Shown piece after piece: positions 12,567 through 34,595 of a stretch of 36,692 nt of DNA. The position numbers were made by a program, and so were the translations under genes. Position 1 is the first letter of the stretch. Every line of letters begins with the position of its first letter. The notes under the pieces were generated by a model. That model searched no databases. It was not told where the DNA came from and saw only the letters and a list, made by a program, of their open reading frames with translations. Origin of the DNA: a virus; the IMG/VR virus record IMGVR_UViG_3300042515_000013, positions 1 through 36,692 of that record. One strand, given 5' to 3'.

Positions 12567-14156
12567 CTAGTTACGAACAGATACTGTTTCAAAATCTGCA
12601 AATGGGTCTTTTTCACCGGCACTGCCGCCTGTTTCTCCATCTAGGTTTAGCGAACCTTCCATACCGGTGCCACCATATTTTGTTTTTATCTTTTCCATAG
12701 CTATTTTTGCTGCAACAAACGCAAACTGCCTAGCTTCGTTTTCTGGAACTCCTTCGGCTATTTTCTTGTTGTAGAACGTTTCGACAAAGGCTTCAAAACT
12801 ATTTGGTTTAACACCTTCTTTAGCCGTAGCAGCAATCGTCCTAGCAATTAGTTCGTTATTTGCGATGGTTTCCCTGCTGGTAAGTTCACGCTCGAACTGC
12901 GATGCCTTTAGGCCAGTATTAGACATATCTACAGCGACACCAAGTATCTCTAGGTTTTCCCTACGGGTCTTGTCGTTCATCTGACCCATGATATCGAGAG
13001 CGCGGTCCTTAAGTGCCTTGCGCTCCTTCTTATCTGCACGTGCACCCGGCATAGCTGCGGCAGCGGCTTCACCCACTGCTTGCAGTAGATACGGGGACTT
13101 AGAGCTAGCCATGTTGAAGCCTATTTCTGCTAACGTCTGGTACATAGAGTCCTTACGCTGCTCCTCGTAATACTCGTCGGACGCCATCTCTTCAGCGCGG
13201 GCCAGACGCTTAGCTTCAACTTCCCGCTGTTTTTCCGTAGGACCAAACTGACGCATCAGGTTTTGGTATTCATCTGCGACTGAACTAGAACGGCCTTCGG
13301 CGGTCCCAAAATCACGTTCGGGCATTTTGGGTGTGGCTTTACCACCTAGGATATTGCCAATATATTTTTTCGTTTCGGCGGGTAGCTGCTTAGGGTCACC
13401 ACCCTTCTTCAGCCACTTATCGACGTTACCCGGTCCCCAATTATACGCAGCTAGTGCAGTAGCCTCATCGCCGTAACGGCGATACATGGCATCAAGGTAG
13501 TCACGACCAGCACGGCGGTTCTCCGCTTCACTATCGTCCCGCATAGGCGTCACGCCAAAACCGGGGTCCTTCATAGTGCCGGGCATAAGTTGCATAACGC
13601 CACGCGCACCTGCGCTGCTCACGGCATCCTGCTTACCACCGCTTTCCCAGTACTCTACGTCGTCATAGAGGTTTGCCATGCCGCCCTTACCGCCACTAGC
13701 AAACGCAACCATACCGCCACCTGCATAACTGCCGTTGTCAGGCTCATCAAACATAGCGTCAGGCACAGGCAGAGTAGATAGACCGCCAGCGGCCATACCC
13801 TGTGGGGGTGGTGCCATGCCCATATCTTGAGGAGGCGGAGCCATAGGCATCTGTGGCGGAGCGCCCATACCTTGCGGCGGCATAGGCATACCTTGGGGTG
13901 GAGGACCCATACCCTGTTGTGGGGCAGGTGGAGCGCCTTGTGGTTGCCCACCACCAAGAACCTGCTGCGCTACAGTCGGCTGCTGCGCACCTTCCATAAC
14001 CTGTGCGGAACGCATCCGGTCAATAAACATACCTGCAAGCACGGCTGCAGTAGGGTCAACGATACCCATTTGCGCAGCTTGCGCAATCTTCTGCTTATTA
14101 CCGGCATATTCCTTAGCAATATTTTCCGGCGCTTGGATGCTGAATGGTTTAGCCAA
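12567..14156 (-). CDS. Virion lytic transglycosylase (SLT domain) with Pro-rich and Gly-rich N-terminus
   Basis: The 529-residue product starts at TTG 14156 after AAGGAG. Residues 70-120 are a Pro/Gln/Gly/Met-rich flexible segment with repeated PPPQGM blocks. Then come MAAGG (121-125), YAGGG (144-148) and FASGG (152-156). The SLT lysozyme-like domain follows: catalytic glutamate E171 in YWESGG, GVMQLMPGT at 187-195 and AYNWGPGNV near 237-245. These are the classic motifs of soluble lytic transglycosylases, which cleave the MurNAc-GlcNAc bond. The C-terminal half (290-500) is mostly helical and charged. In short-tailed phages such proteins sit in the virion and open the cell wall during DNA entry. 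The gene lies between the 668-residue and the giant protein genes, matching an ejection protein set. Confidence 0.9.
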   Translation of the reverse strand: MAKPFSIQAPENIAKEYAGNKQKIAQAAQMGIVDPTAAVLAGMFIDRMRSAQVMEGAQQPTVAQQVLGGGQPQGAPPAPQQGMGPPPQGMPMPPQGMGAPPQMPMAPPPQDMGMAPPPQGMAAGGLSTLPVPDAMFDEPDNGSYAGGGMVAFASGGKGGMANLYDDVEYWESGGKQDAVSSAGARGVMQLMPGTMKDPGFGVTPMRDDSEAENRRAGRDYLDAMYRRYGDEATALAAYNWGPGNVDKWLKKGGDPKQLPAETKKYIGNILGGKATPKMPERDFGTAEGRSSSVADEYQNLMRQFGPTEKQREVEAKRLARAEEMASDEYYEEQRKDSMYQTLAEIGFNMASSKSPYLLQAVGEAAAAAMPGARADKKERKALKDRALDIMGQMNDKTRRENLEILGVAVDMSNTGLKASQFERELTSRETIANNELIARTIAATAKEGVKPNSFEAFVETFYNKKIAEGVPENEARQFAFVAAKIAMEKIKTKYGGTGMEGSLNLDGETGGSAGEKDPFADFETVSVRN

Positions 14157-14167
14157 CTTATATCTCC

Positions 14168-16174
14168 TTAACCGCCGAGCGTCCTAGACAGACCCAATGC
14201 ACCTAGACCAGTACCTAGCACTTGAGAAGCCATAGATGGTGGCGGCGCGTATGATGTCTGGGTCGAGTTCAAGCCTACAGGTATGCCGCGAAGCAAGTTG
14301 CTGTATTGGCCCAGCGTCTCCATTGGGTAGTCGCGCTGACGCAGGAAGTCTGCGTAAGCTTGGTCGAGGTATTGCTGCTGTAGACCGCGTTGCTCACTCG
14401 CCGCCGCCGCTTGGGCTTGCAGACGCTGGAGGTCCGACTGCTGCTGATACTGACCGAGGTTGCCAAGGGTCTGACCCATCTGCCCTGCTGCCTGTAACCC
14501 GGCAAGACCTTGAGAAGCACCAAACTGGCGCGACTGTTCTGCGAGACGCTGCGCTTCAAGCCCTTGCTGCTGGTTAGCGAGCATAGCCTGCATGTAGTTC
14601 TGTGAGCCAAGCTGCTGCGTATTCATCAGCGCTTCGAGGTTCTGTGAGCCTACCTGCAACCCAGCCTGCTGGTTAGCCAGCGCTGCGCGCATCGCCTGTT
14701 CAGCATTTAGCCCCTGTGTCTGCAACTGAGCAGCTTGGTTCTGCACGTTCGCCTGCTGTGCTGCCGACAAGTTAGCCAACGAAGTCTGCATGCCGATATT
14801 AGCACCAAGCTCCTGAGTACCTAGTTGTGACTGCAGGTTTGACTGCGCACGGGTAACGTCTACGCCTTGGTTAGCAAGCGCAGCACGTAGTGCGCTGTCC
14901 GCGTTCATCCCCTGTGCTTGGAACTGCTGCGCTTGGTTATTGACCCGCGCCTGCTGCTCGTTCGACAGGTTCTGCATCGCCGTCTGCAGACCGATGTTAG
15001 CGCCAAGCTCTTGAGTACCCAACTGCGACTGTAGGTTCTGTTGTGCCCGCGTTACATCTACGCCTTGGTTAGCAAGTGCGGCGCGCAGCGCGCTATCAGC
15101 ATTCATCCCCTGTGCTTGGAACTGCGTTGCTTGGTTGTTGACCCGTGCCTGCTGCTCGTTCGACAAGTTAGCCAGAGCCGCCTGCATGCCAGTCTGGAGA
15201 CCCAACTCCTGCTGACCCAATGCTGCTTGCAAGTTAGTCTGACCTGCGGTCATGCCTGCTGCGCGGTCACGCTCAAACTGAGCTTGCGCATTCTCAAACG
15301 CCGCTTGCGAACCACGTGCTTGGATATCACCTAGCTGCGTACTCAGATTACGCTCACGCTCTAGACCGGCAAGTAGCTGACGGCTACCGCCATAGGTGCC
15401 CTGACGCGCAGCGCCAAGGTCTTGGGCAAGCTGGCTCTTCTTCGCGTCTGTAATGGCTTCGCGCTTCTGTGTGTCTACTACGCTTTGCACATAGGGAGAC
15501 ATATACTGGTCGGCTTGCGCCTGCCCGAACTGCTCTGGAGCAGACATACGCAACTGTTCAAGTGGGCCTTGGCCAAAAGAAGTCTGAGCACCCTGCATAG
15601 TAGGCGCGCTAACCTGCTGCGCTGATACCTGCTGAGTAGGGCCAAACTGGAACGCGTTTAGGCTCGGGTTGTACCCCGTCTGCGCTCCCTGCATGTCGGA
15701 AGAGCTAACCTGCTGCGCCGATACCTGCTGAGTGGGGCCGAACTGAAACGCATTTAGGTTCGGATTGTACCCGGTCTGGGCAGTGCCCATCATAGGCGCG
15801 TTTTGCTGCTGAGCAGCTACCCCCATGGCAGGACCCATCTGGTACTGCTGAAGCTGTGGTCCACTGACCTGCTGCGCATTAAACTGCGACGGGTTATAGT
15901 TCTGCTGCAGTGCACCAAGCCCTGCTTGATAGGCAAGTGCGGAGCCAGTACCATACTGGTTCGGTGCACCCATGTTTAGCACATTCTGCTGAATTTGCTC
16001 TTGAGCCGGAGTGTAGCCTGCGATGCGTTGCTGGTTATACGGTGTATACTGCGTGTTGAGCGCGCCTTGCGCGCCTTGCATGAGGCTTTCAAAATACGGA
16101 CGTGCGTATTCGGGCAGGTTGCTCGAAGTAGTAGTTACTTCTTGTTTCGTGGGTGCGCTAGAACCGCCAGCCAT
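14168..16174 (-). CDS. Gln/Ala-rich repeat protein, probable internal virion (ejection) protein
   Basis: The 668-residue product is very rich in Gln, Ala, Asn and Leu and almost lacks charged clusters. AGGAG lies upstream of the ATG at 16174. Residues 130-195 contain two copies of a 32-residue unit (core AQTGYNP, then NAFQFGPTQQVSAQQVS). Residues 230-305 form a charged helix (QKREAITDAKKSQLAQDLGA). Residues 314-511 consist of three 66-residue repeats, each beginning NLQ, and a fourth partial copy follows. The unit length is six times eleven, as expected for a long hendecad coiled coil. The gene sits between two other ejection-type genes and the transglycosylase, so a role in the channel that carries DNA through the envelope is likely (inference). 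Similar Gln-rich repeat proteins occur in uncultured aquatic phages, without known function. Confidence 0.7.
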   Translation of the reverse strand: MAGGSSAPTKQEVTTTSSNLPEYARPYFESLMQGAQGALNTQYTPYNQQRIAGYTPAQEQIQQNVLNMGAPNQYGTGSALAYQAGLGALQQNYNPSQFNAQQVSGPQLQQYQMGPAMGVAAQQQNAPMMGTAQTGYNPNLNAFQFGPTQQVSAQQVSSSDMQGAQTGYNPSLNAFQFGPTQQVSAQQVSAPTMQGAQTSFGQGPLEQLRMSAPEQFGQAQADQYMSPYVQSVVDTQKREAITDAKKSQLAQDLGAARQGTYGGSRQLLAGLERERNLSTQLGDIQARGSQAAFENAQAQFERDRAAGMTAGQTNLQAALGQQELGLQTGMQAALANLSNEQQARVNNQATQFQAQGMNADSALRAALANQGVDVTRAQQNLQSQLGTQELGANIGLQTAMQNLSNEQQARVNNQAQQFQAQGMNADSALRAALANQGVDVTRAQSNLQSQLGTQELGANIGMQTSLANLSAAQQANVQNQAAQLQTQGLNAEQAMRAALANQQAGLQVGSQNLEALMNTQQLGSQNYMQAMLANQQQGLEAQRLAEQSRQFGASQGLAGLQAAGQMGQTLGNLGQYQQQSDLQRLQAQAAAASEQRGLQQQYLDQAYADFLRQRDYPMETLGQYSNLLRGIPVGLNSTQTSYAPPPSMASQVLGTGLGALGLSRTLGG
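14642..15235 (-). repeat. Three tandem 198-bp (66-aa) repeats in the 668-aa gene
   Basis: Unit 1 is 15038-15235, unit 2 is 14840-15037 and unit 3 is 14642-14839. Each encodes exactly 66 residues, starting NLQ and containing NLSNEQQARVNNQA (units 1 and 2) or NLSAAQQANVQNQA (unit 3). Units 1 and 2 share a long identical stretch from QAQGMNADSAL to VDVTRAQ. The match is in protein and DNA. Confidence 0.9.
15590..15781 (-). repeat. Two tandem 96-bp (32-aa) repeats in the 668-aa gene
   Basis: Two copies encode AQTGYNPxLNAFQFGPTQQV followed by SAQQVS; the two DNA copies differ at scattered, mostly silent positions. A third partial copy begins AQTSF. Confidence 0.85.
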
Positions 16175-16177
16175 AAC

Positions 16178-16609
16178 TTACTCCTGTATATCCAAAGGTA
16201 GTTCAAACGACTGCAGGGTTGCTTTATACCCCTCGTCCCGGAATACCCGTTCCCAACCTACGCGCCCATGTGCCTCTATCGCGTCACACTTATTGTCCTT
16301 AGCCCAATTACGGAGCATATCCAACATAGGCTTTTTCCACACTGCGCTTTCCTTACCACCGCACATCTCTAAGGAAAGGCACCGCTTGCGTGGGTAGTCT
16401 ATAAACCGAGTTATTACAGCACCCTTTATATCATCACCATCGAAAGCAATCCATAGCGGATAATCATATTCTAGCACGAGAGCGAGCACATCTTCGGTTT
16501 CGTATTTACCTTGGCTATGCGCAACGGCGTCCCGCACGTACTGCTCCACCTGCGGCCATATATTGGGCACAAGCTCTTTCGGCACCGCAGATACGCGAAC
16601 CTCGCTCAT
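16178..16609 (-). CDS. GNAT-like acetyltransferase-fold protein
   Basis: The 143-residue product begins at an ATG overlapping the stop of the 919-residue gene (ATGA at 16606-16609), so it is probably translated by coupling. The order of elements fits a GNAT fold: an N-terminal helical pair (VPNIWPQVEQYVRDAVAHSQ), a beta strand with DYPLWIAFDGDDIKGAVITR (central strands), then YPRKRCLSLEMCGGKE in place of the acyl-CoA loop, then a helix and a strand with CDAIEAHGRVGWERVFRDEGY. The normal Q/R-x-x-G-x-G/A pyrophosphate loop is degenerate here. Proteins ending in GR-GWER are widespread in phages and often annotated as acetyltransferases; their substrate is unknown. The location inside the ejection module is unusual for an enzyme. 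Confidence 0.6.
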   Translation of the reverse strand: MSEVRVSAVPKELVPNIWPQVEQYVRDAVAHSQGKYETEDVLALVLEYDYPLWIAFDGDDIKGAVITRFIDYPRKRCLSLEMCGGKESAVWKKPMLDMLRNWAKDNKCDAIEAHGRVGWERVFRDEGYKATLQSFELPLDIQE

Positions 16610-19365
16610 GCTAGACCTTTCCGAACTTTAGTGTCTTCGCCGCGCTTCGCTTTCTTGCGTGCTTTATGGGCCTTATCCATCAGGGAGTATAGTTTGGCAG
16701 TGCCGCGCTTATCGCTACCACCGCCTATGCGTTTAACCGCTTCTGGTGTGAACAGTACTTCGTCGCGGGCAACACGTGCTTCCTGCTTGCCACCGATACG
16801 TGCGCGTATCGAGTCGCTTACTCCGTCACCGGGTCCTTGCAGCGGGCGTCCGCCCATGCGAGCCAGAAGCTCCATACCTGCATTGCTGCTGCCATTACCG
16901 AGTTCCGATACGGTACGTGCATCGACGACAAAAGAGCCGTTACGCATGTCTACTTCACCGCCACGGGCAAATTCACCGAAGTTATCATACGACTGCATGC
17001 CACTAGGTACGTCAGTAGGTGCCTGCTGGGACGCAGCAAGCTGGTCCTGTAGCTGTTGCAACTGGGCATATACCCCACTCAGGTCAGTGGATGCAGGTGT
17101 AGGTATAGCATCGAAGCGCGAGTCAATCTGCCCCAACCGGTCGTAGACCCCACTCAGGTCCGTAGCTGCGGGTGAAGGCAGGCTGTTGAAGCGCGAGTCG
17201 ATTTGCCCAAGACGGTCGTAAACTCCGCTCAAGTCGGTAGCCGCAGGTGTGGGCAGGCTGTTGAAGCGTGAGTCGATTTGTCCAAGACGGTCGTAGACAC
17301 CGCTTAGGTCCGTAGCTGCAGGTGCAGGCATGTTGCTCAGACGTGAGTCTAGGCTTCCCAACTGGTCGTAGACCCCACTAAGGTCAGTGGATGGGATACT
17401 TTCAAAGCGTGAGTTTATCTGCCCCAACTGGTCGTAGACCCCACTCAAGTCGGTAGCTGGCATGTTGCTTAGACGCGAGTCCAAGTTGCCCAGCTGCGAG
17501 TAAACACCGCTCAAGTCGGTGGACGGGATGCTGTCGAAGCGCGAGTTTATCTGCCCGAGCTGGCTGTCGAGTTCAGAGTCCAGCTGCCCTATCTGCTCAC
17601 CAAACCTATTTTCCAGCTGCCCGAACCGGTCGTAGACCCCACTCAAGTCAGTAGTGGGCAGCGTATTAAACCGTGAGTCTATCTGGCTAAGCCGGTCATT
17701 TAGTCCTGAGTCCATGCTATTAAATTGGTCAGCAAAGTTAGTCTCAACCTGCCCAAGCCGATTGTTTAGCCCCGAGTCCAGCTGGTTGAACTGGTCAGTG
17801 AAGTTATTCTCAAGCTGCCCGAAGCGGTCGTTGATGCCGGTAAGCGCCGGAGTTATAGAGTCCTGCATGATATTGAACCGGGAGTCGTACTGGTTAAACC
17901 GGTCGTCAATACCTGAGTCTATCTGCCCCAACTGCTCACCAAAGCGGTTTTCAAGCCGTCCAAACCGGTCATCAAGCGCACTGTAATCAGGGTTAATTAT
18001 GCTGTCTTCCATACGCCCAAACCGGTCGTATAGGCCGGTGAGGAAAGCTTCATCGTACCCCCCGAAACCACCAATAGCGTTACCGCCACCACCGCCACCC
18101 GCTATTGGGTTAGGGATTAGATTTGCGGAAGGACGTTTAAAGCTCATTATCTCCCCGGCCCCAGAGGGGGGAAGGCCAGCGTAATCAGGCCGCATCGACG
18201 CAGTTATAGCACCGGGACTATTTGCACTGAAATAGTTCACCGCAGACTGGAAATCATTGGCGGCTGGCAGTGATGCAAGACCGCCCTCGGCAAACCCATA
18301 TTCGGCCCGCTCTTCGGGGGTTAGCTCATTTACTGAACGAGGCGGTGGGTTAGATGGAGTAAAGTACTTATGTTCTGCGCCGCCAGAAGCCCGCATCTGC
18401 TCTGGAGATTGGAAAGACAACTCACGCTTACCGGGCACATACGGGCCATTGTAGTTGGACTTGTACTCGTCCTCTTCGTTGTAAGTGGGCATCTTCGGCT
18501 GCATAGCGTCCGATACTGAACCCAGTAGACCTGCACCAGCCGCCATAGGCGCAGCTTTAGTTATCATGCCGGGAGTGCCAGCAGGTAGCCCCTGAGTTAC
18601 ACTTTGCCCGAACTTGGAGAGCAAACCACCAGATGTTGGGGCGGTTGCGGAGCTTATCGGACTAAGGGCGTTAATTGATAGCGCGGGGTCTGCTACTGCT
18701 CCAGTAACTGTTTGTATTCCGCCAGTAGTAGCTGCAGAAGGAGCCGTAGCACCGATAGAAGGAGCCGTAGCAGTAACTCCGCTAGTAACAGTAGGCGCAA
18801 CAGCAGCACCGGCACCCATATTGGCCCCAAACATTCCGGCACTTTCACCCAACAACCCGCCAGCGTTTCCACCGAGCAACGTACCACCAGCACCAACAGC
18901 GCCAGCAAGACCAGCACCACCGAAGGCACCGAGACCAGCCATCAGACCTTTGCTTAAATCTCCAGTAAGTGCAGTCTGTCCTGCGGCTACCATACCAGCA
19001 GCGAGTGGGGCACCGACACCAGTAGCAGCAAGGCCGAAGCCGATAAGTGTTGGAAGAAGTTTACCGAGCCAGCCTGCTTCGGGTAGGCCAGTATGTGGGT
19101 TGATTGTAAGGGAGCCGCCATGTGCCATAGCTAGCTGCTGCAGACCGTTGACTTCACCGGGGGTCATGTGGACAAGCATCTTGTCGTCACCACGACCGTA
19201 GCTCTGCAGCTGCTTAGCCATAGGGTTCTGAGTTACAGACAGACCACCAACCGCAGGCATGCCGCCAGTAGTGCCGGGAACCATAGCACCAAGCTGCGGA
19301 GCCGCCCCTGTTACCGAAGCATTCGGTGCTGAATTGATGACCGGCGGTACGGTGCGCATGTCCAT
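16606..19365 (-). CDS. Large repeat virion protein, probable ejection protein
   Basis: The 919-residue product starts at ATG 19365 with AAGGA upstream. Residues 62-100 hold LVHMTPGEVNGLQQLAMAHGG and TINPHTGLPEAGWL, an N-terminal segment I have seen in many aquatic phage proteins. Residues 100-190 are Gly/Ala-rich and hydrophobic and could insert in membranes. Residues 440-775 are a coiled-coil-like repeat region rich in RFGQLENRF and DSRF. It ends with eight copies of TDLSGVY at residues 572, 616, 638, 660, 685, 710, 735 and 760. The C-terminus (799-919) contains FARGG, GNGSSNAG, GDGVSDSIRARIGG, VARDEVLFTPEAV and a basic tail. The combination of membrane-like and coiled segments and the neighbours argue for an internal virion or tail-extending protein. 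No catalytic motif is visible. Confidence 0.7.
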   Translation of the reverse strand: MDMRTVPPVINSAPNASVTGAAPQLGAMVPGTTGGMPAVGGLSVTQNPMAKQLQSYGRGDDKMLVHMTPGEVNGLQQLAMAHGGSLTINPHTGLPEAGWLGKLLPTLIGFGLAATGVGAPLAAGMVAAGQTALTGDLSKGLMAGLGAFGGAGLAGAVGAGGTLLGGNAGGLLGESAGMFGANMGAGAAVAPTVTSGVTATAPSIGATAPSAATTGGIQTVTGAVADPALSINALSPISSATAPTSGGLLSKFGQSVTQGLPAGTPGMITKAAPMAAGAGLLGSVSDAMQPKMPTYNEEDEYKSNYNGPYVPGKRELSFQSPEQMRASGGAEHKYFTPSNPPPRSVNELTPEERAEYGFAEGGLASLPAANDFQSAVNYFSANSPGAITASMRPDYAGLPPSGAGEIMSFKRPSANLIPNPIAGGGGGGNAIGGFGGYDEAFLTGLYDRFGRMEDSIINPDYSALDDRFGRLENRFGEQLGQIDSGIDDRFNQYDSRFNIMQDSITPALTGINDRFGQLENNFTDQFNQLDSGLNNRLGQVETNFADQFNSMDSGLNDRLSQIDSRFNTLPTTDLSGVYDRFGQLENRFGEQIGQLDSELDSQLGQINSRFDSIPSTDLSGVYSQLGNLDSRLSNMPATDLSGVYDQLGQINSRFESIPSTDLSGVYDQLGSLDSRLSNMPAPAATDLSGVYDRLGQIDSRFNSLPTPAATDLSGVYDRLGQIDSRFNSLPSPAATDLSGVYDRLGQIDSRFDAIPTPASTDLSGVYAQLQQLQDQLAASQQAPTDVPSGMQSYDNFGEFARGGEVDMRNGSFVVDARTVSELGNGSSNAGMELLARMGGRPLQGPGDGVSDSIRARIGGKQEARVARDEVLFTPEAVKRIGGGSDKRGTAKLYSLMDKAHKARKKAKRGEDTKVRKGLA
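17030..17652 (-). repeat. Eight TDLSGVY repeats, 66- or 75-bp period
   Basis: Within the 919-residue gene, TDLSGVY starts at residues 572, 616, 638, 660, 685, 710, 735 and 760. The first step is 44 residues (twice 22), the next two are 22 and the last four are 25 because of an added PAP or PTP linker. Repeats at 685-735 are nearly identical. Confidence 0.9.
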
Positions 19366-20108: not shown

Positions 20109-22040
20109 CTATCTCCGACCATCAGGTCGTGCGTCTAGGCGTGGTGCACCTAACTGCCACTGTACCCCAAGTTCATCGGAAGCAACTTTTAGCGCCATCT
20201 GACGTGCACGGGCACGGACAAACACTTGGTCTGTATAAGCGCCTACTGAAGTCTCAATGACGCGTTGACTATCCGCAGGGTCTACACGGAACGCACTACC
20301 GGGAAAGTTGCGTGGCCGAACAGTTAGCGTAACTTCTGGAGACACAGCGGTCGAGCCATCAAAGCTTATGTCAGGTATTATACGCCTAGTGAGCATGAAC
20401 TGGTCGCCGTCATCAAGGTCAAAGTCAGACGACTGGATGTAGCTGTCCATAGGCAAGTCATCGTCATTTACCCCAAGCTCATGGGAGTATAGGTAGCCAC
20501 TGCTTGTATCGCTCGGCGTGTTTGCAGCTTGCGGGTAGTAGCGTATAGCAGTGTCGAGCCACGCTGTGCGCGGTACATATCCATAATACCAGATGCGCTC
20601 AAGGTGGTTGTAGACCACATAGGCGTTGTTATAGTCGCTATCTAAGGTAGGGTAGAACCACCAGATTTCGTTCCACTGCTCGTTGGTTCCGCATACTACC
20701 TGCTCAGCCTGCTGGATGTTAAAGTCATTGAATACGTGATTACGTAAGGTGCACGGCAGTGTCTCGACGCGACCGGTGTAGGCATAGAACTTATCCTGCC
20801 CCATCCAGTATGTGGTGTTAGCCGCTGAAGCTACCGCCCGTGGCGACATGATAGAAATATTATCTGCGTATTCCTGCAAGCCAAACACGTCAGTCGTGCC
20901 AAGAAACTGCAATGTGTAGAGGTGGCTGTCTGTCCATATTAGGATTTCCTGCCGTGTAGGCAGAGCGCGTACAATACGTGAGCCGCGAGAAACGCGTAGG
21001 TCACCTGCAGAATTAGTCTGTGTGGGCGTCCAGTCGCCCGGTGTATCTTGGTCAGCCCAGCGTATAAGCATGGGGTCAAAATCATCAGGGTCTACTGAGC
21101 CAAAGGGCACAGCGCCGAAAGCGATTAAGTGCCGGTCCTGCTGCGATACCAACAACTGCATAATCTTAACAGGGACCGACGCCGCCGTATAGCCTTCGGC
21201 AGTGGCATAGTCTGATAGGCTGATAGCACGAGTACCAAGCGCGTTTGTCGGGTCATCCGTAGTCCCACGCGCCCACCAGTAGCCCTCACCGTTACGGTAG
21301 TTCATCACTAGGTCGTTATCAAAGTTATCGAACCACCAGTCGCGCTGTTGCAGCGCTATCGGATACGCAGAGCCAGTGCCCCATGTACCACGACCCCAAG
21401 TGGCTGTACCCCAGCCATAACCAAGCACGCTGATAGCAAAGCCGGGGCTAAGTTCAAACGCAAGCTCGATGGCTGTACCACCCGAACCAGTCACGGTAGA
21501 CGTAGCACTTGTGCTAACGTCGTAGGTAAATATGAAGGCGTCTACGACGGTAATCGGGTAGTTACCGTTAATCTGAGTGATTGGTATGCCACCGATATTG
21601 GAAGGTGAGCCGGAACCTGTAACACCCGAAATAGTTACATAATCCCCCGTCTGCGCGCCGTGAGCAACTGCGCCTAAGTCCACTGTGACCTTAGCTTGGC
21701 CGCTAGTGGTGTCTATGCAGTTGTCAGTGTCCGGTGAGTCTAGCACCGGGGCTGTATCGCGCAGCGGGGTTATGTCGTAGTAGTTACCCGCAATTTCTAT
21801 GTAAACTTTTACGTTCGTGCCCATTGCGAGCATGTCGTCAGAATAAGAAGTAACCCAGTTTAACATCTGCCTGCAATAGCCGATGAATGGGTCAGGCGCG
21901 GATTTTAGCCAGCCGCCAAGCTTCTCCGGGTAACCGGAACGGAAGCGTATTTTATCACACTCCCTCCAGCCGCCTTCGTTAGAATAGTCGGTCTGGTCCC
22001 GGTTAACACCCGGCTTAAATTGAAGCTTGATGAAGGACAC
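20109..22040 (-). CDS. Tail nozzle / packaged-DNA stabilisation-like protein
   Basis: The 643-residue product starts at GTG 22040, directly after the TAA of a 53-residue gene and with an AAGGGGG ribosome site inside that gene. The N-terminus (LQFKPGVNRDQTDYSNEGGW then DKIRFRSGYPEKLGGW) is a signature I know from uncharacterised short-tailed phages. Residues 55-560 are strand-rich with repeated Trp/Tyr patterns (WWFDNFDNDLVMNYRNG, EILIWTDSHLYTLQFLG, NEIWWFYPTLDSDYNNAYVVYNHLERIWYYGY), consistent with a beta-propeller like P22 gp10 or T7 gp12. Such proteins close the tail tube and carry fibres. The C-terminus (FVRARARQMALKVASDELG) is another recurrent end. Position between fibre and ejection genes fits a nozzle. 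The propeller reading is inference. Confidence 0.7.
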   Translation of the reverse strand: MSFIKLQFKPGVNRDQTDYSNEGGWRECDKIRFRSGYPEKLGGWLKSAPDPFIGYCRQMLNWVTSYSDDMLAMGTNVKVYIEIAGNYYDITPLRDTAPVLDSPDTDNCIDTTSGQAKVTVDLGAVAHGAQTGDYVTISGVTGSGSPSNIGGIPITQINGNYPITVVDAFIFTYDVSTSATSTVTGSGGTAIELAFELSPGFAISVLGYGWGTATWGRGTWGTGSAYPIALQQRDWWFDNFDNDLVMNYRNGEGYWWARGTTDDPTNALGTRAISLSDYATAEGYTAASVPVKIMQLLVSQQDRHLIAFGAVPFGSVDPDDFDPMLIRWADQDTPGDWTPTQTNSAGDLRVSRGSRIVRALPTRQEILIWTDSHLYTLQFLGTTDVFGLQEYADNISIMSPRAVASAANTTYWMGQDKFYAYTGRVETLPCTLRNHVFNDFNIQQAEQVVCGTNEQWNEIWWFYPTLDSDYNNAYVVYNHLERIWYYGYVPRTAWLDTAIRYYPQAANTPSDTSSGYLYSHELGVNDDDLPMDSYIQSSDFDLDDGDQFMLTRRIIPDISFDGSTAVSPEVTLTVRPRNFPGSAFRVDPADSQRVIETSVGAYTDQVFVRARARQMALKVASDELGVQWQLGAPRLDARPDGRR

Positions 22041-29435: not shown

Positions 29436-30116
29436 CTACACGACCGGATAGCGTGCTTGGCCACTACGGTACATATCTTGACGATTTTTACCTTCACCAA
29501 GCTGTTTGAGTAGTGCCATCGCTTCAGTGTAACGCTTCTGATATTCAGCGTTGATGTCCTGCTCACCCTTCATAAAGATGTACGCCTCAATGAGCGCGCC
29601 ATAGAGCAATGCGCTATCGAAGTTATCGCCCAACCACGACGTACCAGCAGTCACAATCGAAGGCGGGTAGTAGAAGTAGTGCAGTTCGACGGAATAATTA
29701 GCGTCCGGCGTCGGCCCCAAGATGTACGAGTTCTCGTCAAAGTAGGCGTAGTGTGTAGGTATGCCTTCCTCGTCTGGGTTCGGAAACGACTGCCGGATAA
29801 AGCTGACGTCCTTGTTGAGCAAATACTCATACCGCCCTGTGGCGTCGATGACAGCCATGGAGAAGTTAGCCAGCCAGTCTGAAGGTACAGACAGGTATTT
29901 ATTACCTGACGTCATGTTACCCGTCACGTTCTTACGCAGGTCAAGCAACTGCACCGTGTTAAAGATGCGCTGCTCAGCCTGTTCGATGAACGTGTTAATC
30001 TGCTCGGTAGACGTCAAAGTCACCGGAGTGGTGCCGTCAGAGCCGGTCCACGAAGTGTTGGGAAAGTCGTTTTCGACGTACCCTTTGATTGTCTCGAACA
30101 GTTCAGCGTAATTCAT
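29436..30116 (-). CDS. Head-tail adaptor protein (SU10-like)
   Basis: The 226-residue product starts at an ATG overlapping the TAA of the upstream 46-residue gene (TAATG). The motif series INTFIEQAEQRIFNTVQLLDLRKNVTG, YLSVPSDWL, YAYFDENSYILGPTPDANYSVELHYFYYP and ALLYGALIEAYIFMKGEQDINAEYQKRYTEAMALLKQLGEG is characteristic of phage adaptor proteins of the phage SU10 type, which bind below the portal and carry the tail. The C-terminal helix is where the next ring would attach. With the 236-residue protein it forms two connector-like layers. I am confident of the adaptor family, less so of which ring it is. Confidence 0.8.
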   Translation of the reverse strand: MNYAELFETIKGYVENDFPNTSWTGSDGTTPVTLTSTEQINTFIEQAEQRIFNTVQLLDLRKNVTGNMTSGNKYLSVPSDWLANFSMAVIDATGRYEYLLNKDVSFIRQSFPNPDEEGIPTHYAYFDENSYILGPTPDANYSVELHYFYYPPSIVTAGTSWLGDNFDSALLYGALIEAYIFMKGEQDINAEYQKRYTEAMALLKQLGEGKNRQDMYRSGQARYPVV

Positions 30117-30256
30117 TAGCCCAACTTCTTGCTGCTATGCGTGCCCTTAGTCGCTGCACCTGTACCGCGAGTCTTCACAGTCTGAGTGTTAGCTACGTTG
30201 TTTGGGTAGCCCGAATTGTTCTTCACAATCGGCACCGTCTTTGGTTTGTAGTCCAT
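30116..30256 (-). CDS. 46-residue small basic conserved protein
   Basis: The product is chosen from ATG 30256, just after the upstream gene stop (TGA at 30258-30260), rather than from a longer frame that begins inside that gene. It contains TVKTRGTGAATKG, an element found near the ends of other short phage proteins, and is strongly basic. It overlaps the adaptor start by one base (TAATG). No fold or function can be assigned. Confidence 0.6.
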   Translation of the reverse strand: MDYKPKTVPIVKNNSGYPNNVANTQTVKTRGTGAATKGTHSSKKLG

Positions 30257-30257
30257 A

Positions 30258-30449
30258 TCATTTACCCCGCGAAGATGACTTCTGGTTGGCGACTTTGGCA
30301 AGATTACGACCCAGCGCCTTCATCTGCGCATTGGTTTTGCCGCCCTTAGCCATCTTAGTCAGAGGCTTACCCTTGTGCATTGCGCGCTCGTGCTTGTGCA
30401 CGGCCTTCGCTGCGGTAGCCTTGTCCTGCTTCAAATCTTTCTTATCCAT
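30258..30449 (-). CDS. 63-residue basic protein with MAKGG motif
   Basis: The start is ATG 30449; an earlier GTG at 30452 overlaps the previous stop (TAG-TG). The product is Lys/Ala-rich, with a charged helix DKKDLKQDKATAAKAVHKHERAMHKGK, then LTKMAKGGKTNAQ and a basic end NQKSSSRGK. MAKGG is shared with other late proteins (see findings). It may contact DNA or a capsid surface, from charge only. Function unknown. Confidence 0.65.
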   Translation of the reverse strand: MDKKDLKQDKATAAKAVHKHERAMHKGKPLTKMAKGGKTNAQMKALGRNLAKVANQKSSSRGK

Positions 30450-30451
30450 CA

Positions 30452-30844
30452 CTAATTCTCCGTCTCAATCGTTACGGTCCCTACTTGACCATTGCCTAAT
30501 AGCGTATTTGGAAGCCCAAATAAACCCAAAGGATTATTTAGCCCTACCGGGGCCCACCCCCACTGGATTACACGGCTACCGTCAGTTGGGTTGTTGTTCA
30601 CGTTCAGACCTGCTTGGTTATAGCTGTTGTCTGGGCGAGGGTCGCGTAGCGCCTGTGGGTCATCCACTGGGTACATACCCAACTGAAGCTGCGGCTGGTC
30701 CGGTTCCCAGCATGTGGGGCACACGAGAATGTTGACGTTCTTGGTCTTAATGACGAGCCGCTTGAGCTCCTTAAGCTTGTAGCGAAAGTTACAGCGGTCG
30801 CATTGGGCGATTGCCCATTTACCGGAAGCGAACCGATTAGGCAC
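30452..30844 (-). CDS. Zinc-ribbon phage protein, probable virion component
   Basis: The 130-residue product starts at GTG 30844, three bases after the adaptor stop. Two cysteine pairs, C15-x-x-C18 (CDRC) and C42-x-x-C45 (CPTC), make a treble-clef-like zinc ribbon. Downstream is WEPDQPQLQLGMYPVDDPQA followed by LRDPRPD, a sequence that recurs in phages that carry this neighbourhood, and a Gly/Asn-rich C-terminus ending in VGTVTIETEN. The zinc site suggests a small folded core that links to nucleic acid or to other virion proteins. It lies between the two adaptor proteins. No enzyme activity is implied. Confidence 0.75.
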   Translation of the reverse strand: MPNRFASGKWAIAQCDRCNFRYKLKELKRLVIKTKNVNILVCPTCWEPDQPQLQLGMYPVDDPQALRDPRPDNSYNQAGLNVNNNPTDGSRVIQWGWAPVGLNNPLGLFGLPNTLLGNGQVGTVTIETEN

Positions 30845-30847: not shown

Positions 30848-31558
30848 TCACCGGAAATACTGACGAGGTGCGATACGCAACGGCGCTTTCTCGCGGTCCT
30901 CATCAGCAGCCTGCTGCCAGAGTTCTTCGTATTCAGCCTTTAGCATCGGGCTGCGCTCAAGCGCGCCGGGAACCTTTAAGGATAGGTGATACGCGAGACC
31001 AGCCACCAGACAAGGGAGGAACCTAAACGGTATATCCTGCGTAGTAACGCCATCGCCAGCATCCTGTAAACGGCGCAAGCGCCAATAGACAAAGGTGTAA
31101 AAATTGCTCTGGTCCGGTGCGGGCCAGACATTTATCTGCGGGTTTGCAACGCCATCTACCGGATAGTCTGCACCTGACTGACGGTTAATCCACACTTGGA
31201 TAGGCCGACCCTGCGCGTTCTTGTTCGGAATTGTCGAGTATGTGTCGATACTGATACGGCTAATCGTAATGTCCGTCTGCTGCTCCCCGGTTTGGGTGCG
31301 CACAACGTGCTCAAGTAGGTCTATCGTATCTACAGGCAGGTCATAAACAATCTGCCCCTGAACAAGCGGAATAGAGCCTTGCTCAATGGTCCACAGGTTA
31401 ATACCACGGTTAGCCCACTCAATAGTGAGCAGGTTGAGGCTGCGGCGCGCAGTGCGTAAGTCATAACCCGTACGAAGCTCAGCCCCACAACGCTCAAAAC
31501 TCTCTTCCACAATATCATTAAGATTTAGATTAAACGCACTAGTTCCGCTTGTGGTCAT
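30848..31558 (-). CDS. Head-tail adaptor / tail-tube A-like protein
   Basis: The 236-residue product starts at an ATG that overlaps the stop of the homing endonuclease gene (ATGA). The N-terminal half contains FNLNLNDIVEESFERCGAEL, then YDLRTARRSLNLLTIEWANRGINLWTIEQ, which is the helical base of gp4- or gp11-type short-tail proteins; then YDLPVDTIDLLEHVVRTQ, RPIQVWINR and INVWPAPDQSNFYTFVYWRLRRLQD, and finally PFRFLPCLVAGLAYHLSLKVPG. The order is that of the connector ring proteins that dock to the portal (P22 gp4 or T7 gp11 type). This is inferred from segment order. The C-terminus has a basic end APRQYFR. Confidence 0.75.
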   Translation of the reverse strand: MTTSGTSAFNLNLNDIVEESFERCGAELRTGYDLRTARRSLNLLTIEWANRGINLWTIEQGSIPLVQGQIVYDLPVDTIDLLEHVVRTQTGEQQTDITISRISIDTYSTIPNKNAQGRPIQVWINRQSGADYPVDGVANPQINVWPAPDQSNFYTFVYWRLRRLQDAGDGVTTQDIPFRFLPCLVAGLAYHLSLKVPGALERSPMLKAEYEELWQQAADEDREKAPLRIAPRQYFR

Positions 31559-32094
31559 ACGTTTATACCTTTTTCCTTGGCGCGCTTTGCCGCTAAACCA
31601 GCACGAGCCGCATCCATTCCACGTTTTTTCGCACTTAGACTAATATTCCTACGGTGCTCTTCGGTAAACACCCTACCTGTTTGCCGCTGTCGGAGTAGTT
31701 CTTTGTGTTCCGCAGTTAGAGGTTTACCCTTCTTAGCCTTAACTTTGGCCTCTTGGCATGCTGCGGACACACCGCGCTTCCTTGCTGCCTCCGACAGCTT
31801 TGCCCTAGTTTCGGGGGTAGGGTTACGCCCACCATCGCCACCATCAGTGCGATTAACCAACTCTACACCAGCGCGCCGTAGGCACTTAATAAGGCCTTGT
31901 TCGAGCATGTAGGCAGTTTTATCGTCTGAACACTCGAGAGCACCATACGACAAGTTTTCCTTACCGTGTTTAGCTACTACGTTTTTATGGTGGGGGTTGC
32001 GCTCTCCAAAATACCGCACGCGCCTCCAAGCACCTTTCCCTACATAGAAGGGGGTGCCGTCTGGTTTACAGTGGATATATGCAAAACTACCCAT
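31555..32094 (-). CDS. GIY-YIG homing endonuclease with NUMOD3 repeats
   Basis: The 179-residue product is a free-standing homing endonuclease. Residues 4-21 (FAYIHCKPDGTPFYVGKG) are the variant GIY and YIG strands, followed by a basic helix with R24-R25; E65 in AYMLEQGLIK is the likely catalytic glutamate and NRTDGGDGG (81-89) completes the core. C-terminal NUMOD3 DNA-binding repeats follow: NPTPETRAKLSEAARKRG, PLTAEHKELLRQRQTGR and FTEEHRRNISLSAKKRG. Such enzymes cut related genomes and copy themselves into the site. Both ends are coupled to neighbours: TAATG with the upstream DUF5872-type gene and ATGA with the adaptor gene. A typical mobile gene, yet neatly built into the operon. Confidence 0.92.
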   Translation of the reverse strand: MGSFAYIHCKPDGTPFYVGKGAWRRVRYFGERNPHHKNVVAKHGKENLSYGALECSDDKTAYMLEQGLIKCLRRAGVELVNRTDGGDGGRNPTPETRAKLSEAARKRGVSAACQEAKVKAKKGKPLTAEHKELLRQRQTGRVFTEEHRRNISLSAKKRGMDAARAGLAAKRAKEKGINV

Positions 32095-32489
32095 TACCTA
32101 AATTTCGCTGCCTTCTTCGCTATCGCTTTCGGCTGCTTAACGAACTGCTTGCCCGCTTTTATGCCTGCGCGTTTCGCCTTACTTGTAGCAGAGTATTCCT
32201 GCGAACTCAAAGCCTCACGTGCTTTCTTAGGCAAGTAGCGCTCGCCCGTGGCTTTTGCCCCCTGCGTAGACGGTTTACCTGACTTGGTACCCCAGTCTTC
32301 CTTAGTCCATTTCGACAAGGATTTCTGAGCTTCTGTCTTCGGGCCGCTGTAGCCACCGCCAGACTTCTTATACCGCTGCGTGGCTAGCTGAGCTTTACGG
32401 GCGGACCATTGACCTGCGTTTCCACCCTTCGTGCCAGCCTTTACGCTAGCAACGATGCGCTTCCATTTAGGTTCGTCCGACCGTGCCAT
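32094..32489 (-). CDS. DUF5872-type small basic protein
   Basis: The 131-residue product matches from memory the DUF5872 pattern: VASVKAGTKGGNAGQWSARK, then QRYKKSGGGYSGPKTEAQKS, LSKWTKEDWGTKSGKPSTQG, ATGERYLPKKAREAL and KRAGIKAGKQFVKQPKAIAKK. The protein is highly basic with a Gly/Lys pattern that suggests binding of nucleic acid. Family members occur in phages and in some cells, with unknown function. It has TAATG overlaps on both sides and sits in the run of small basic genes. Confidence 0.8.
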   Translation of the reverse strand: MARSDEPKWKRIVASVKAGTKGGNAGQWSARKAQLATQRYKKSGGGYSGPKTEAQKSLSKWTKEDWGTKSGKPSTQGAKATGERYLPKKAREALSSQEYSATSKAKRAGIKAGKQFVKQPKAIAKKAAKFR

Positions 32490-32743
32490 TACTTCTTCTT
32501 AAAGCCCTTCAGCAACTGTGCAAACCGTGCACGTTGGCCTAGCTTACCCGGAGCCTTAGCGGCCTTGGCAAGCTTACCGGCTGGGATTGGCTTGCCCTTC
32601 TTAGCACCAAGAGCCGAGCGCAACGCACCCGGCTTCTTAATAGCTTTTGATATGTCGAGTTTCGCCTCACCGCCCTTAGCCATACCTGTGGCCTTGGGCA
32701 TCTTAGCTGGGTTCATAGCCCCCATACCCCGACAGGCACGCAT
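32489..32743 (-). CDS. 84-residue basic protein with MAKGG motif
   Basis: The start at ATG 32743 shares a base with the upstream stop (TAATG). Later in-frame ATGs at 32725 and 32716 are also possible. The protein has MAKGGEAKLDISKAIKKPGA (residues 21-40) and a Lys/Ala-rich helix ending GFKKK. It is strongly basic. MAKGG is shared with other genes here. No known family recognised and no function can be assigned. Confidence 0.65.
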   Translation of the reverse strand: MRACRGMGAMNPAKMPKATGMAKGGEAKLDISKAIKKPGALRSALGAKKGKPIPAGKLAKAAKAPGKLGQRARFAQLLKGFKKK

Positions 32744-33780
32744 TAGCAGGAGCCGCCTTTTTTCATCTTGACCATTGAAGTCTTGGTCTTGCCCTTAACA
32801 GCGCAACCGTCGATGGAGCCGCCCTTGGCAAACTTCATCATTGCACGGCCCTTGGTGTCAGCCGACTTCTTCTTCATCGCTGCGCCAAACTTGGTCGCTG
32901 CTTTACCGCCCTTTGCCATACCCGGCTTAGCGTTGCGCTTTGCCAGTTCCTTAAGAAACTCTTTACGCTCTGGGGTCAACGGCACAGTGTTTGCACCGCC
33001 AGTGATTGGTTCTTTCGGCATTGGCTTTTTCTTCATTGGCATTGGTTTTTTATTCATGGTAGTTTCCTTTTTAACTAAGCCACCTTTGGCTTTGTACATG
33101 CCGGACTCCACTGCCCGCCTGTAATCTTGTACAGCAGCCCTAGAAGCACCGGGGGCTTCGGCTATAGCACGCATCCTAGCTAGTTTAGGGTTCTGGCTAT
33201 TAACTGGTTTGCCACGTTCCGCTGCAACCTTCAGGTCTACAAAAGCCTGCCTATTAAACGGAGTGACGGGTAGTGGTTTAGTCGGAGAGCCTGAGGTGCT
33301 TCCACCGCGTACATTGCGGAAGTTTGTTTTTGGTGCACTTGTTTTTGTGTCCGAAGCAGGTGGGGCTGCATCTTTATTTGTGCGCGGAGGGGCCGTTGGA
33401 CGCCGTACAGATGCTTTAGCCTTCGGCTTGCTTGCGCCAATAGAGCTGTCCATCTTGGGTGTGGGCAAGCTGTCTGTGATTTTAGTTGTTGCCGCTGGAG
33501 CTTCAGCAGTCACCGACTTTGCTGCGCCGTACTTACGGGTCTTTGTCAGGTTGCTTTCTGCGGCTTTCTCTGCTGCGCGTGTAGCAGTGCGGTCAGCGCC
33601 TGTGCGCTTAGCTAGGTCGTCCTTGGCATCAGCGATACGCTGTGCGGCTTTCGCTTCAGCTACATCTGCGTTTTTACCTTTGGCGAGGGCAATTTTACGG
33701 TCTTTTTCAATATCCGCCATGCGGCGTTCGTAGCGGCCTTGTGCACCACCGGCTGAGAACTTTTTCATCTTGCGTGCCAT
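32743..33780 (-). CDS. 345-residue basic, low-complexity protein with AKGG repeats
   Basis: The product begins MARKMKKFSAGGAQGRYERRMA, then an Ala/Lys/Asp-rich helix (residues 20-85), then a long Pro/Ala/Thr/Ser/Lys-rich linker (90-190) and a folded-looking piece FVDLKVAAERGKPVNSQNPK around 190-230. Then KAKGG at 230-234, a Lys/Pro/Met-rich segment, LTPERKEFLKELAKRNAKPG, MAKGG at 288-292, FAKGG at 317-321 and a tag DGCAVKGKTK at 324-333. It may be two proteins: ATG 33057 (residue 242) has a good ribosome site AAAGGAAAC before it and would make a 104-residue product. The gene sits among similar small basic genes. No function is known; a structural or DNA-related role is a guess. Confidence 0.6.
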   Translation of the reverse strand: MARKMKKFSAGGAQGRYERRMADIEKDRKIALAKGKNADVAEAKAAQRIADAKDDLAKRTGADRTATRAAEKAAESNLTKTRKYGAAKSVTAEAPAATTKITDSLPTPKMDSSIGASKPKAKASVRRPTAPPRTNKDAAPPASDTKTSAPKTNFRNVRGGSTSGSPTKPLPVTPFNRQAFVDLKVAAERGKPVNSQNPKLARMRAIAEAPGASRAAVQDYRRAVESGMYKAKGGLVKKETTMNKKPMPMKKKPMPKEPITGGANTVPLTPERKEFLKELAKRNAKPGMAKGGKAATKFGAAMKKKSADTKGRAMMKFAKGGSIDGCAVKGKTKTSMVKMKKGGSC

Positions 33781-33782
33781 AA

Positions 33783-34025: not shown

Positions 34026-34026
34026 G

Positions 34027-34281
34027 TCAGCACTTCCAAGCCCTGAGGCTTTTGTTGATGCGGCTATTAGGGTCATTCGCGGTCTTCTTGCTGGTCAGCT
34101 TCTTCTTCATCCCAGACATCCGGGCACAGAATGACTTCTTGCGTGGACCACCTTCAGGCTGCGGTGCCTTGAGACCGGGCTTACCCGGATTGGCTTTGTT
34201 GTAAGACGCACGACCCTTGGCGTTCAGCCCGCCAGACTTCGCTTTGCCTTCTTTGCGTTGCCATGCGGGTGTCTTAGCCAT
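34027..34281 (-). CDS. DUF6321-type small protein
   Basis: The 84-residue product begins MAKTPAWQRKEGKAKSGGLN, continues AKGRASYNKANPGKPGLKAP, and has RKKSFCARMSGMKKKLTSKK, then NDPNSRINKSLRAWKC. This is the DUF6321 pattern as I recall it, including the conserved SFCARMSGM and the C-terminal Cys. It is strongly basic with two Cys. The start overlaps the upstream stop (TAATG). Members are known only as hypothetical phage proteins. Confidence 0.8.
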   Translation of the reverse strand: MAKTPAWQRKEGKAKSGGLNAKGRASYNKANPGKPGLKAPQPEGGPRKKSFCARMSGMKKKLTSKKTANDPNSRINKSLRAWKC

Positions 34282-34595
34282 TACACGAACTTCCCGCGTG
34301 TTTTGCCTTGAGTAGCGCAGCCATCGCCGCGACGAGAGGCGGAGCCGCCCTTGGCCATCTTCTTGACCTTGCCGCCGCGCTTCATACCTTCACCGGCTTC
34401 CATGGCTACTACTTCTTCAGCGCCACCGGGTTTACCCGCTGCACCTTTTTTCTTCTTCTTAGCTAACGCCATACCTGCTACACCTAGACCACCCATACGA
34501 GCGATGTCACCGATACCTACTTTGCCAGCCTTCATGGCCGCGCCCGCAAGTCCGCCCATAGCGCCCGCTTTTAGAATATCTCCGAATTTACTCAT
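34281..34595 (-). CDS. 104-residue protein with Gly/Ala-rich half and basic DGCA tag
   Basis: The first 46 residues (ILKAGAMGGLAGAAMKAGKV, GIARMGGLGVAGMAL) are Gly/Ala-rich and might insert in a membrane or pack in helices. A lysine run KKKKK and a Glu-rich stretch follow, then RGGKVKKMAKGG at 73-84 and SASRRGDGCATQGKTRG at 85-101. This end is almost the same as the end of the 345-residue protein. The gene starts with a one-base overlap (TAATG) to the glycosyltransferase. Unknown function; it could be a small head or packaging-associated protein. Confidence 0.6.
   Translation of the reverse strand: MSKFGDILKAGAMGGLAGAAMKAGKVGIGDIARMGGLGVAGMALAKKKKKGAAGKPGGAEEVVAMEAGEGMKRGGKVKKMAKGGSASRRGDGCATQGKTRGKFV

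Follow-up and report, generated by a model that had tools for sequence, protein, structure and literature searches.

A recurrent [MFY]A.GG motif in late proteins of an aquatic phage and its possible role as a docking element of virion-internal proteins

Encapsulins take up unrelated cargo proteins by means of short C-terminal cargo-loading peptides, and these cargos are encoded near the gene of the HK97-fold shell. In phage T4, several internal head proteins carry a short N-terminal peptide, the capsid targeting sequence, which is removed by the prohead protease. To our knowledge, it is largely open how podophages choose the small proteins that travel with their DNA. For the ejection proteins of podophages, passages of PMC8954989 describe the modularity of their hydrolase domains and, in T7, a "molecular tape" beside the gp16 transglycosylase. 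Here we report on a short protein motif, [MFY]A.GG, that is found eleven times in six late proteins of an IMG/VR virus record described as an aquatic phage (IMGVR_UViG_3300042515_000013; all 36,692 bases were analysed and are called the window below), and that in two of these proteins opens a C-terminal tag.

The late genes of the window resemble those of P22 (gp7, gp20, and gp16) and T7 (gp14 to gp16) in several respects, i.e., an ejection cassette that comes after a P22 gp10-like protein, an SLT transglycosylase domain, a match to an ejection protein family of the PHROG database, and an exchangeable hydrolase domain. The motif sets the window apart, because P22 has no copy of [MFY]A.GG and T7 has only one, which lies in an endonuclease gene, with none in the core proteins. 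As in encapsulins, the phage tag is C-terminal on diverse proteins; its sequence differs, however, and docking to the shell is suggested by analogy. The capsid targeting sequence of T4 is N-terminal, whereas the phage tag stands at the C-terminus. These analogies with encapsulins, T4, and T7 may bear on a possible mechanism, not on membership in one of these systems.

The eleven copies had been noticed in an earlier inspection of the letters (the sequence-only reading), and a pattern scan found all of them at the residues given there, as well as a near match, KAKGG, in the 345-amino-acid (aa) protein. The smallest carrier had been called 63 aa long and has 64 residues when counted from its GTG start codon. 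The carriers and the copies are as follows:

12567..14156, minus strand, 529-aa protein with SLT transglycosylase domain at residues 169-255 (Pfam SLT, E 9.7e-18, 64.3 bits, cut-off 21.3)
13782..13796, minus strand, MAAGG at residue 121 of the 529-aa protein (pattern scan, alignment)
13713..13727, minus strand, YAGGG at residue 144 of the 529-aa protein (pattern scan, alignment)
13689..13703, minus strand, FASGG at residue 152 of the 529-aa protein (pattern scan, alignment)
16606..19365, minus strand, 919-aa tape-measure-like protein of the ejection cassette (28 motif copies in 11 distinct homologues)
19114..19128, minus strand, MAHGG at residue 80 of the 919-aa protein (pattern scan, homologues)
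18280..18294, minus strand, FAEGG at residue 358 of the 919-aa protein (pattern scan, homologues)
16957..16971, minus strand, FARGG at residue 799 of the 919-aa protein (pattern scan)
30258..30452, minus strand, 64-aa basic carrier with GTG start (matches in 46 loci)
30339..30353, minus strand, MAKGG at residue 34 of the 64-aa protein
32489..32743, minus strand, 84-aa basic carrier
32669..32683, minus strand, MAKGG at residue 21 of the 84-aa protein (pattern scan)
32743..33780, minus strand, 345-aa carrier rich in Lys and Arg (sequence)
33079..33093, minus strand, near match KAKGG at residue 230 of the 345-aa protein (sequence)
32905..32919, minus strand, MAKGG at residue 288 of the 345-aa protein (pattern scan)
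32818..32832, minus strand, FAKGG at residue 317 of the 345-aa protein (pattern scan)
34281..34595, minus strand, 104-aa carrier with a Gly-rich hydrophobic N-terminus (by eye), KKKKK, a linker, and the tag (sequence)
34344..34358, minus strand, MAKGG at residue 80 of the 104-aa protein, opening its C-terminal tag (pattern scan)

When each protein in a sample of 39 chosen open reading frames (ORFs) of the window (11,992 aa) was shuffled, a check that had been proposed with the motif, the mean was 1.24 copies with a maximum of 7, and none of 2000 composition shuffles reached the observed 11. Control patterns stayed close to their shuffled values ([LIV]A.GG 4 versus 2.3, [ST]A.GG 2 versus 2.1, [KRQE]A.GG 4 versus 2.7), while the looser [MFY]..GG was found 20 times compared to 10.2 in shuffles, a count reached in 11 of 2000. 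Taken one by one, the observed counts were reached in 1 of 5000 shuffles for the 529-aa and the 919-aa protein, in 3 for the 345-aa, 16 for the 64-aa, 151 for the 84-aa, and 522 for the 104-aa protein, so that the enrichment in the latter two is weak by itself. The x position is filled by K, R, H, E, D, A, S, or G, and this variety led us to reject an RGG-like nucleic-acid-binding box for the motif itself; after GG, the eleven copies continue with L, M, K, S, or E. The motif had been chosen by eye in the same window, which biases the shuffle p-value, and it was therefore also tested in relatives, which give partly independent support.

As relatives we used 107 loci, some of them near-copies of the window, of which 27 were obtained via the 529-aa protein and the best 80 of 137 via the 245-aa protein; family counts refer to distinct homologues with at least 60% of the length of the window protein, shorter ones being dropped. 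In this comparison the expected conservation was borne out: the motif is present in 139 of 164 distinct homologues of the six carrier families, as opposed to 3 of 623 homologues of the other 33 window families (two homologues of a 668-aa protein and one of a 1124-aa fibre). By family, the carriers number 15 of 17 (529 aa), 11 of 11 (919 aa), 12 of 25 (64 aa), 28 of 35 (84 aa), 27 of 27 (345 aa, with 76 copies in total), and 46 of 49 (104 aa). An alternative clustering of all proteins by single linkage merged the small tagged families, with only the 529-aa and 919-aa families passing (2 clusters, 0 in five shuffles), and the per-family table was preferred.

The same picture emerges from the residue in front of A.GG, for which proteins were made non-redundant by shared 12-mers and compared to 20 shuffles in three sets of loci. 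Observed and expected counts were M 45/3.1, F 13/3.4, Y 57/3.4, L 10/7.9, and W 0/0.9 in the GT loci; M 27/3.1, F 17/3.5, Y 22/3.2, L 6/6.5, and W 1/1.3 in the SLT loci; and M 86/7.8, F 37/7.9, Y 65/7.6, L 27/15.1, and W 0/2.3 in the loci found by the tag (see below). Across relatives, M, F, and Y are thus enriched 3.8-16.8 fold, compared to 0-2.2 fold for L, I, V, and W. The three residues also replace one another at homologous positions: at the motif site of the 104-aa protein, 48 distinct homologues read MA (41), YA (2), FA (1), LA (1), or FS (1) and two are not matched by the pattern, while the 84-aa family prefers Y (20) over M (5), F (2), and L (1) in the 28 of 34 distinct homologues that have A.GG.

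Four related records of 53.7-63.7 kb (one of them used whole and three in their first 60 kb) contain 9, 9, 11, and 4 copies versus shuffle means of 1.5, 1.4, 1.7, and 1.3. Their motif is confined to late genes: 30 of the 33 copies lie in ORFs that best match the six families (one, in record G009, is also similar to the 131-aa protein) and the remaining three in a fibre (two) and a 668-aa homologue (one), with no copies in the other labelled genes of these near-whole records (e.g., terminase, portal, scaffold, capsid, helicase, and primase).

The sequence-only reading had seen no other similarity among the carriers. This is incorrect, since MAKGG/FAKGG-S..DGCA..GKT is common to the C-termini of the 104-aa and 345-aa proteins. 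Their last motif copy opens a tag of about 25 residues with the consensus [MFY]xxGG...R[AG]DG[IC]Ax[KR]GKT[KR]Gxxx-stop, present in the window in these forms:

34284..34358, minus strand, C-terminal tag MAKGGSASRRGDGCATQGKTRGKFV of the 104-aa protein (holds all invariant alignment columns; copies in other phages)
32746..32832, minus strand, C-terminus of the 345-aa protein, an extended variant of the tag (FAKGGSIDGCAVKGKTKTSMVKMKKGGSC) with GGSC at its end (sequence)
30119..30175, minus strand, C-terminal end KTRGTGAATKGTHSSKKLG of a 61-aa ORF (30116-30301), possibly a sister tag (same R-G-x-G-x-A-x-K-G spacing)

Conservation of the 104-aa family is mainly C-terminal, with all 11 invariant columns of 42 aligned sequences between A81 and G101. 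To follow the tag further, IMG/VR was scanned with a degenerate DNA pattern for DG[IC/FS]Ax[KR]GKT[KR]G, which gave at least 120 stretches; all tag counts are those of these 120 loci. They hold at least 196 tag copies, and 143 of 196 end exactly three residues before the stop codon. Within 20 residues upstream of the 196 copies we found GG in 184, [MFY]..GG in 151, [MFY]A.GG in 78, and [LIVWC]A.GG in 9. Residues inside the search pattern are conserved by construction and only positions outside it are informative, and these are well kept in 141 distinct tails (A-19 75%, S-18 80%, R-16 84%, A/G-15 95%); 115 of 139 distinct tails have M, Y, or F as the third residue before the last upstream GG, a position that was free in the search. 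Of 44 distinct extended tails in the tag loci, 32 close with GG followed, after at most three residues, by C. The sister-type C-terminus RGTGAATKG... occurs as 33 distinct tails in the loci, and its shared spacing suggests that it is related to the main tag.

The tag sits on many different proteins. After removal of the tag and the 25 preceding residues, 155 bodies of at least 40 aa fell into 75 sequence clusters (single linkage of blastp matches at E 1e-3, which may split short basic sequences too finely), and in 39 of 40 loci with several tags all tagged bodies belonged to different clusters. Up to four or five tag matches were seen on single contig pieces (L124, L143, and L195). Every one of the 196 tagged proteins has a net positive charge. 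Among 119 tag loci, many of them short fragments, window proteins were matched by 99 (236-aa protein), 95 (130-aa protein), 80 (DUF6321), and 51 (capsid C-terminus), and the tag is thus found mostly in one head-module lineage, where it lies in the stretch that follows the capsid gene. A narrower tag pattern also hit bacterial genome contigs, in 5 stretches whose titles all say MAG or uncultured. No PHROG family matched the consensus tag peptides, nor did any annotated phage record, where matches could have been masked by the low-complexity filter and the short query. The 104-aa protein had no match in a PDB sequence search or among annotated phage records, and the 345-aa protein matched no PHROG or Pfam family at E 0.01. 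An AlphaFold2 (AF2) model of the 104-aa protein is uninformative (mean predicted local distance difference test score, pLDDT, 54) and shows the tag without regular structure, as expected of a linear motif.

The large carriers belong to the ejection cassette, whose genes follow the gp10-like head closure gene with a 223-aa gene in between. Further parts of these carriers and their neighbours are:

13689..13796, minus strand, motif block MAAGG...YAGGGMVAFASGG of the 529-aa protein (at least two exact copies in each of 14 aligned sequences)
16609..16971, minus strand, tape-measure-like C-terminal module of the 919-aa protein following FARGG (tblastn, profile comparison, AF2)
14168..16174, minus strand, 668-aa ejection-cassette protein, in the window without motif (phrog_4287 DNA ejection protein, E 4.6e-6)
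5614..12555, minus strand, 2313-aa DarB-like protein without motif that closes the ejection cassette (phrog_10089, E 4.6e-39)
20109..22040, minus strand, 643-aa P22 gp10-like stabilisation protein that marks the head-tail cassette (matches annotated stabilization protein; phrog_3287)

In the 529-aa family, all 14 aligned sequences have a recognisable block MA.GGL..LPVPD.MFDEP.NG.YAGGG.VAFA.GG, and acidic forms of the motif (MADGG, MAEGG, and FADGG) are common. Judged by eye, six of the aligned sequences continue after the block with the SLT sequence, one with a divergent, lysozyme-like one, and seven with something else. Conversely, three proteins outside the alignment (L020, L022, and L028) have only the SLT part in common with the 529-aa protein and lack the motif, so that block and enzyme are separable both ways; this fits the domain swapping of ejection proteins described in passages of PMC8954989. 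The three copies had been placed directly before the catalytic domain, where a cleavable linker would be expected. Their position holds, as residues 121-156 precede the SLT domain at 169-255, but the block is also kept in the 7 of 14 homologues that, by eye, go on without SLT. Via its SLT part, the 529-aa protein matches phrog_342 (internal virion protein with endolysin domain, E 3.2e-12). Of the four cassette proteins, the two of 668 and 529 aa thus resemble known ejection or internal virion proteins. The motif is found in 2 of 13 homologues of the 668-aa protein, in 0 of 9 of the 2313-aa protein, and in none of 16 of the 643-aa protein.

The 919-aa protein links the motif to tape measure proteins. 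Its counterpart in phage DSL-LC04 is annotated as a tail tape measure protein, its repeat region matches phrog_7740 and phrog_167, and a tblastn search with its C-terminus gave 37 matches in Gordonia and Nocardia phage records (best E 2e-6), with 29 of the 30 listed annotated as tape measure and one unannotated. At the FARGG site, 15 aligned sequences keep GG throughout, and A is preceded by F, Y, L, R, or other letters. AF2 modelled the C-terminus fairly confidently (mean pLDDT 73.6); Foldseek found no PDB match at E <= 0.001 and three uncharacterised viral models, and a PDB sequence search with the 919-aa protein gave no useful match (best E 0.09). The sequence RVARDEVLFTPEAVKRIG..LYSLM resembles IVHRGEFVFTKEATSRIG..LYRLM of gpH of lambda and N15, in both of which [FY]A.GG occurs twice near the C-terminus, before and behind the LYRLM stretch. 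However, a profile comparison with gpH (HHalign) reached a probability of only 54% (E 1.3e-4, 27 columns, 56% identical), and the 919-aa protein sits in a gene set that looks P22-like. As a separate observation, the C-terminal domain at window positions 16609-17028 resembles an internal duplication (GSFVVDARTVSELG... and DEVLFTPEAVKRIG..., by eye from sequence and AF2 secondary structure).

The motif is thus a real, protein-level, modular element of late proteins that occurs both in ejection-cassette proteins and in the tag of small proteins. What it does is less certain. Of the three functions proposed by the sequence-only reading (processing site, common docking tag, or spreading sequence element), docking is the best supported, with the motif standing in a modular C-terminal tag in two of six carriers. 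We therefore favour, at a probability of roughly 45%, that [MFY]A.GG is a short docking element of virion-internal proteins that leave with the DNA and that, in this lineage, a modular C-terminal tag has developed from it. One shared virion component, which may be the portal or core, the inner face of the capsid, or the carriers themselves, would then be bound by both the tag and the internal copies. Such binding would recruit the carriers into the particle, by analogy with the C-terminal cargo peptides of encapsulins, and the carriers would leave it together with the DNA. The SLT enzyme may be held to the other ejection proteins by the block adjacent to it, similar to the molecular tape of T7 gp16 in the passages of PMC8954989.

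Several observations weigh against such a docking element. Two cassette proteins of the window, those of 668 and 2313 aa, do without the motif, and so do five of eight tape measure proteins (the other three carry 5 copies, with 0.66 expected). The tape measure module of Gordonia phage AikoCarson reads LRSGG where the window has FARGG, with its own FASGG further on, and the module can thus do without the motif. The motif is also not strict: 5 of 7 non-carriers in the 84-aa family read [YF]AK[KE]GG, e.g., YAKKGG, so that the spacing is not absolute; the 13 non-carriers of the 64-aa family have LAKGG (10), LAAGG (1), or LKSGG (2), so that neither is the first letter; and K before A.GG is raised 2.1-2.5 fold in two of three sets. 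The fourth near-whole record, with 4 copies, lies inside its shuffle range (maximum 5). Among nine reference phages, three of them covered in part only, the motif is enriched in DSL-LC04 alone (8 copies versus 1.5); next to the scarcity in the ejection phages P22 and T7, the six others, lambda included, have 1 or 2 copies each, inside the shuffle range, and the element is therefore not universal. The copies of DSL-LC04 lie in ejection-cassette proteins (3), a 561-aa protein (2), and a PcfJ-like protein (3). The latter (L112:1-1274, an ORF cut by the end of the stretch) is encoded outside the structural cassette with its copies near the N-terminal end of the ORF, and it does not fit a virion-internal role unless it is likewise packaged. 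Both docking and the virion location of the small basic proteins are inferred from sequence, and one function for both carrier sets is an assumption, because tag carriers and cassette proteins share five residues only.

The main specific rival is that a phage or host protease cuts after GG and thereby frees the SLT domain or removes a spent C-terminal tag. Tape measure proteins of T5 and lambda are indeed cleaved during tail morphogenesis according to passages of PMC10038345, lambda and N15 gpH carry their [FY]A.GG pairs near the C-terminus, and a database record notes that P22 gp7 loses 20 residues to host OpdA. However, the T5 cut beside the muralytic domain falls after R1127 and not after GG (same passages of PMC10038345), and passages of PMC7291167, PMC10721106, and PMC11101478 do not give the position of the gpH cleavage. 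The tag is conserved on both sides of GG, and the residue after GG is free in the eleven copies, which does not support processing. Peptidases of the Pfam families S78, ClpP, and C39 were found in 0 of 20 related records, which may be fragments (controls were positive in 4, 12, and 8 of 14); the search left out T4-type prohead proteases, and a search for C48 proteases, the cognate enzymes of adenain-type GG sites, was negative in the same 20 records but silent in its controls, too. By eye, the head modules of L060 and L037 have no obvious protease gene. Double-glycine leaders would require N-terminal copies, whereas those of the window start at residues 21 to 799 and are mostly internal or C-terminal, with only the 84-aa copy (21-25) fitting by position. 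Overall, we consider processing very unlikely.

Without any common partner, the motif could also be a favoured turn in flexible linkers rich in Gly and Lys that is closed by a bulky hydrophobic residue. The copies in the 529-aa and the small proteins lie in low-complexity stretches, and both the unstructured prediction for the 104-aa tag and the variable spacing would suit such a hinge. A hinge should, however, hardly discriminate between M, F, or Y and L, I, V, or W, nor be so rare in the other 33 families, and total GG pairs of the window are not raised (118 versus 113 in shuffles); the fixed residues of the tag and its mostly fixed distance to the stop codon speak against it as well. We regard this explanation as unlikely. 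Decidedly unlikely, in our view, is a role after ejection in which motif or tag would bind the host envelope, a chaperone, or the nucleoid, with packaging set elsewhere. It would be in line with the uniformly positive charge of tagged proteins, the glycine-rich hydrophobic stretches seen by eye in the 104-aa and 919-aa proteins, and the DarB-like 2313-aa neighbour, as DarB-like proteins are of a kind known to be injected. Yet the acidic forms of the motif common in the SLT family do not fit simple DNA binding by the motif.

A spreading short DNA element, or chance, can practically be discounted. The flanks of the eleven copies are unrelated (median identity 0.29 upstream and 0.27 downstream), which rejects the proposed spreading element, and no shared DNA repeat of greater length was found within 45 bases on either side. 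A codon-level or DNA-element origin was likewise rejected, because the codons of Ala and the second Gly vary and M, F, and Y interchange at homologous positions; against chance stands the shuffle test. One feature of the DNA could favour such an element: all 11 copies use GGC for the first Gly, compared to 44 of 107 other GG pairs (Fisher p 1.3e-4). In relatives, however, GGC is only mildly preferred (112/178, 45/74, and 105/201 versus 837/1755, 574/1258, and 1227/3061 of other pairs).

Beyond the docking element itself, one can imagine a modular sorting code in widespread uncultured aquatic phages, though we think it doubtful. Interchangeable C-terminal tags ([MFY]xxGG-RADGIAxRGKTKG, on several unrelated small basic proteins per genome) would load changeable injected cargo via one virion receptor, and the same [MFY]xxGG anchor would hold the tape-measure-like and SLT proteins; the code would possibly also take in the RGTGAATKG..ARGPMA sister form and the extended GGxC ending. 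If true, the probable virion cargo of many uncultured phages could be read off their sequences, and the tag could be fused to other proteins to load them into phage heads. The C-terminal tag itself was unexpected: a literature search on motif, tag, DUF6321, and neighbours, limited to open-licence full texts, found no description of motif or tag among the matches listed.

The minus strand of the window forms a late operon, while the plus strand carries six ORFs that look early, two of them with helicase- or primase-like sequence (by eye). In two relatives (L060 and L037), the operon is continued upstream by terminases, portal, GroES-like protein, scaffold, and capsid (names by eye). Downstream (3') of the capsid gene come a glycosyltransferase-like protein and small, mostly basic ORFs (104 aa, DUF6321, 97, 345, 84, 131, ... 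64 aa), followed by tail genes, the 643-aa gp10-like protein, the 223-aa protein, and the cassette of 919, 668, 529 (SLT), and 2313 aa (DarB-like). Two further features of this region are:

36177..36692, minus strand, C-terminal part of the major capsid protein, whose gene runs off the window end (phrog_371; intact 303-aa homologue in L060)
34027..34281, minus strand, 84-aa DUF6321 protein adjoining the tagged genes (Pfam PF19846, E 3.9e-19)

The DUF6321 member of the window ends without a tag, and some relatives have tagged forms (L144, L162, L165, and L167). DUF6321 matches occur in 542 phage records, mainly of cyanophages and pelagiphages, and in HTVC115P and P-SCSP1h the gene is also close 3' of the capsid gene. 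In L060 (5483-5929) and L037 (5673-6149), the portal and scaffold genes have a GroES-like co-chaperonin gene (by eye) between them, and in HTVC027P and CRP-901 genes annotated as GroES stand upstream of that of the capsid. Among the small late genes of the window, positions 31555-32094 encode a 179-aa protein with the look of a GIY-YIG nuclease (by eye), which has matches in 3 loci only.

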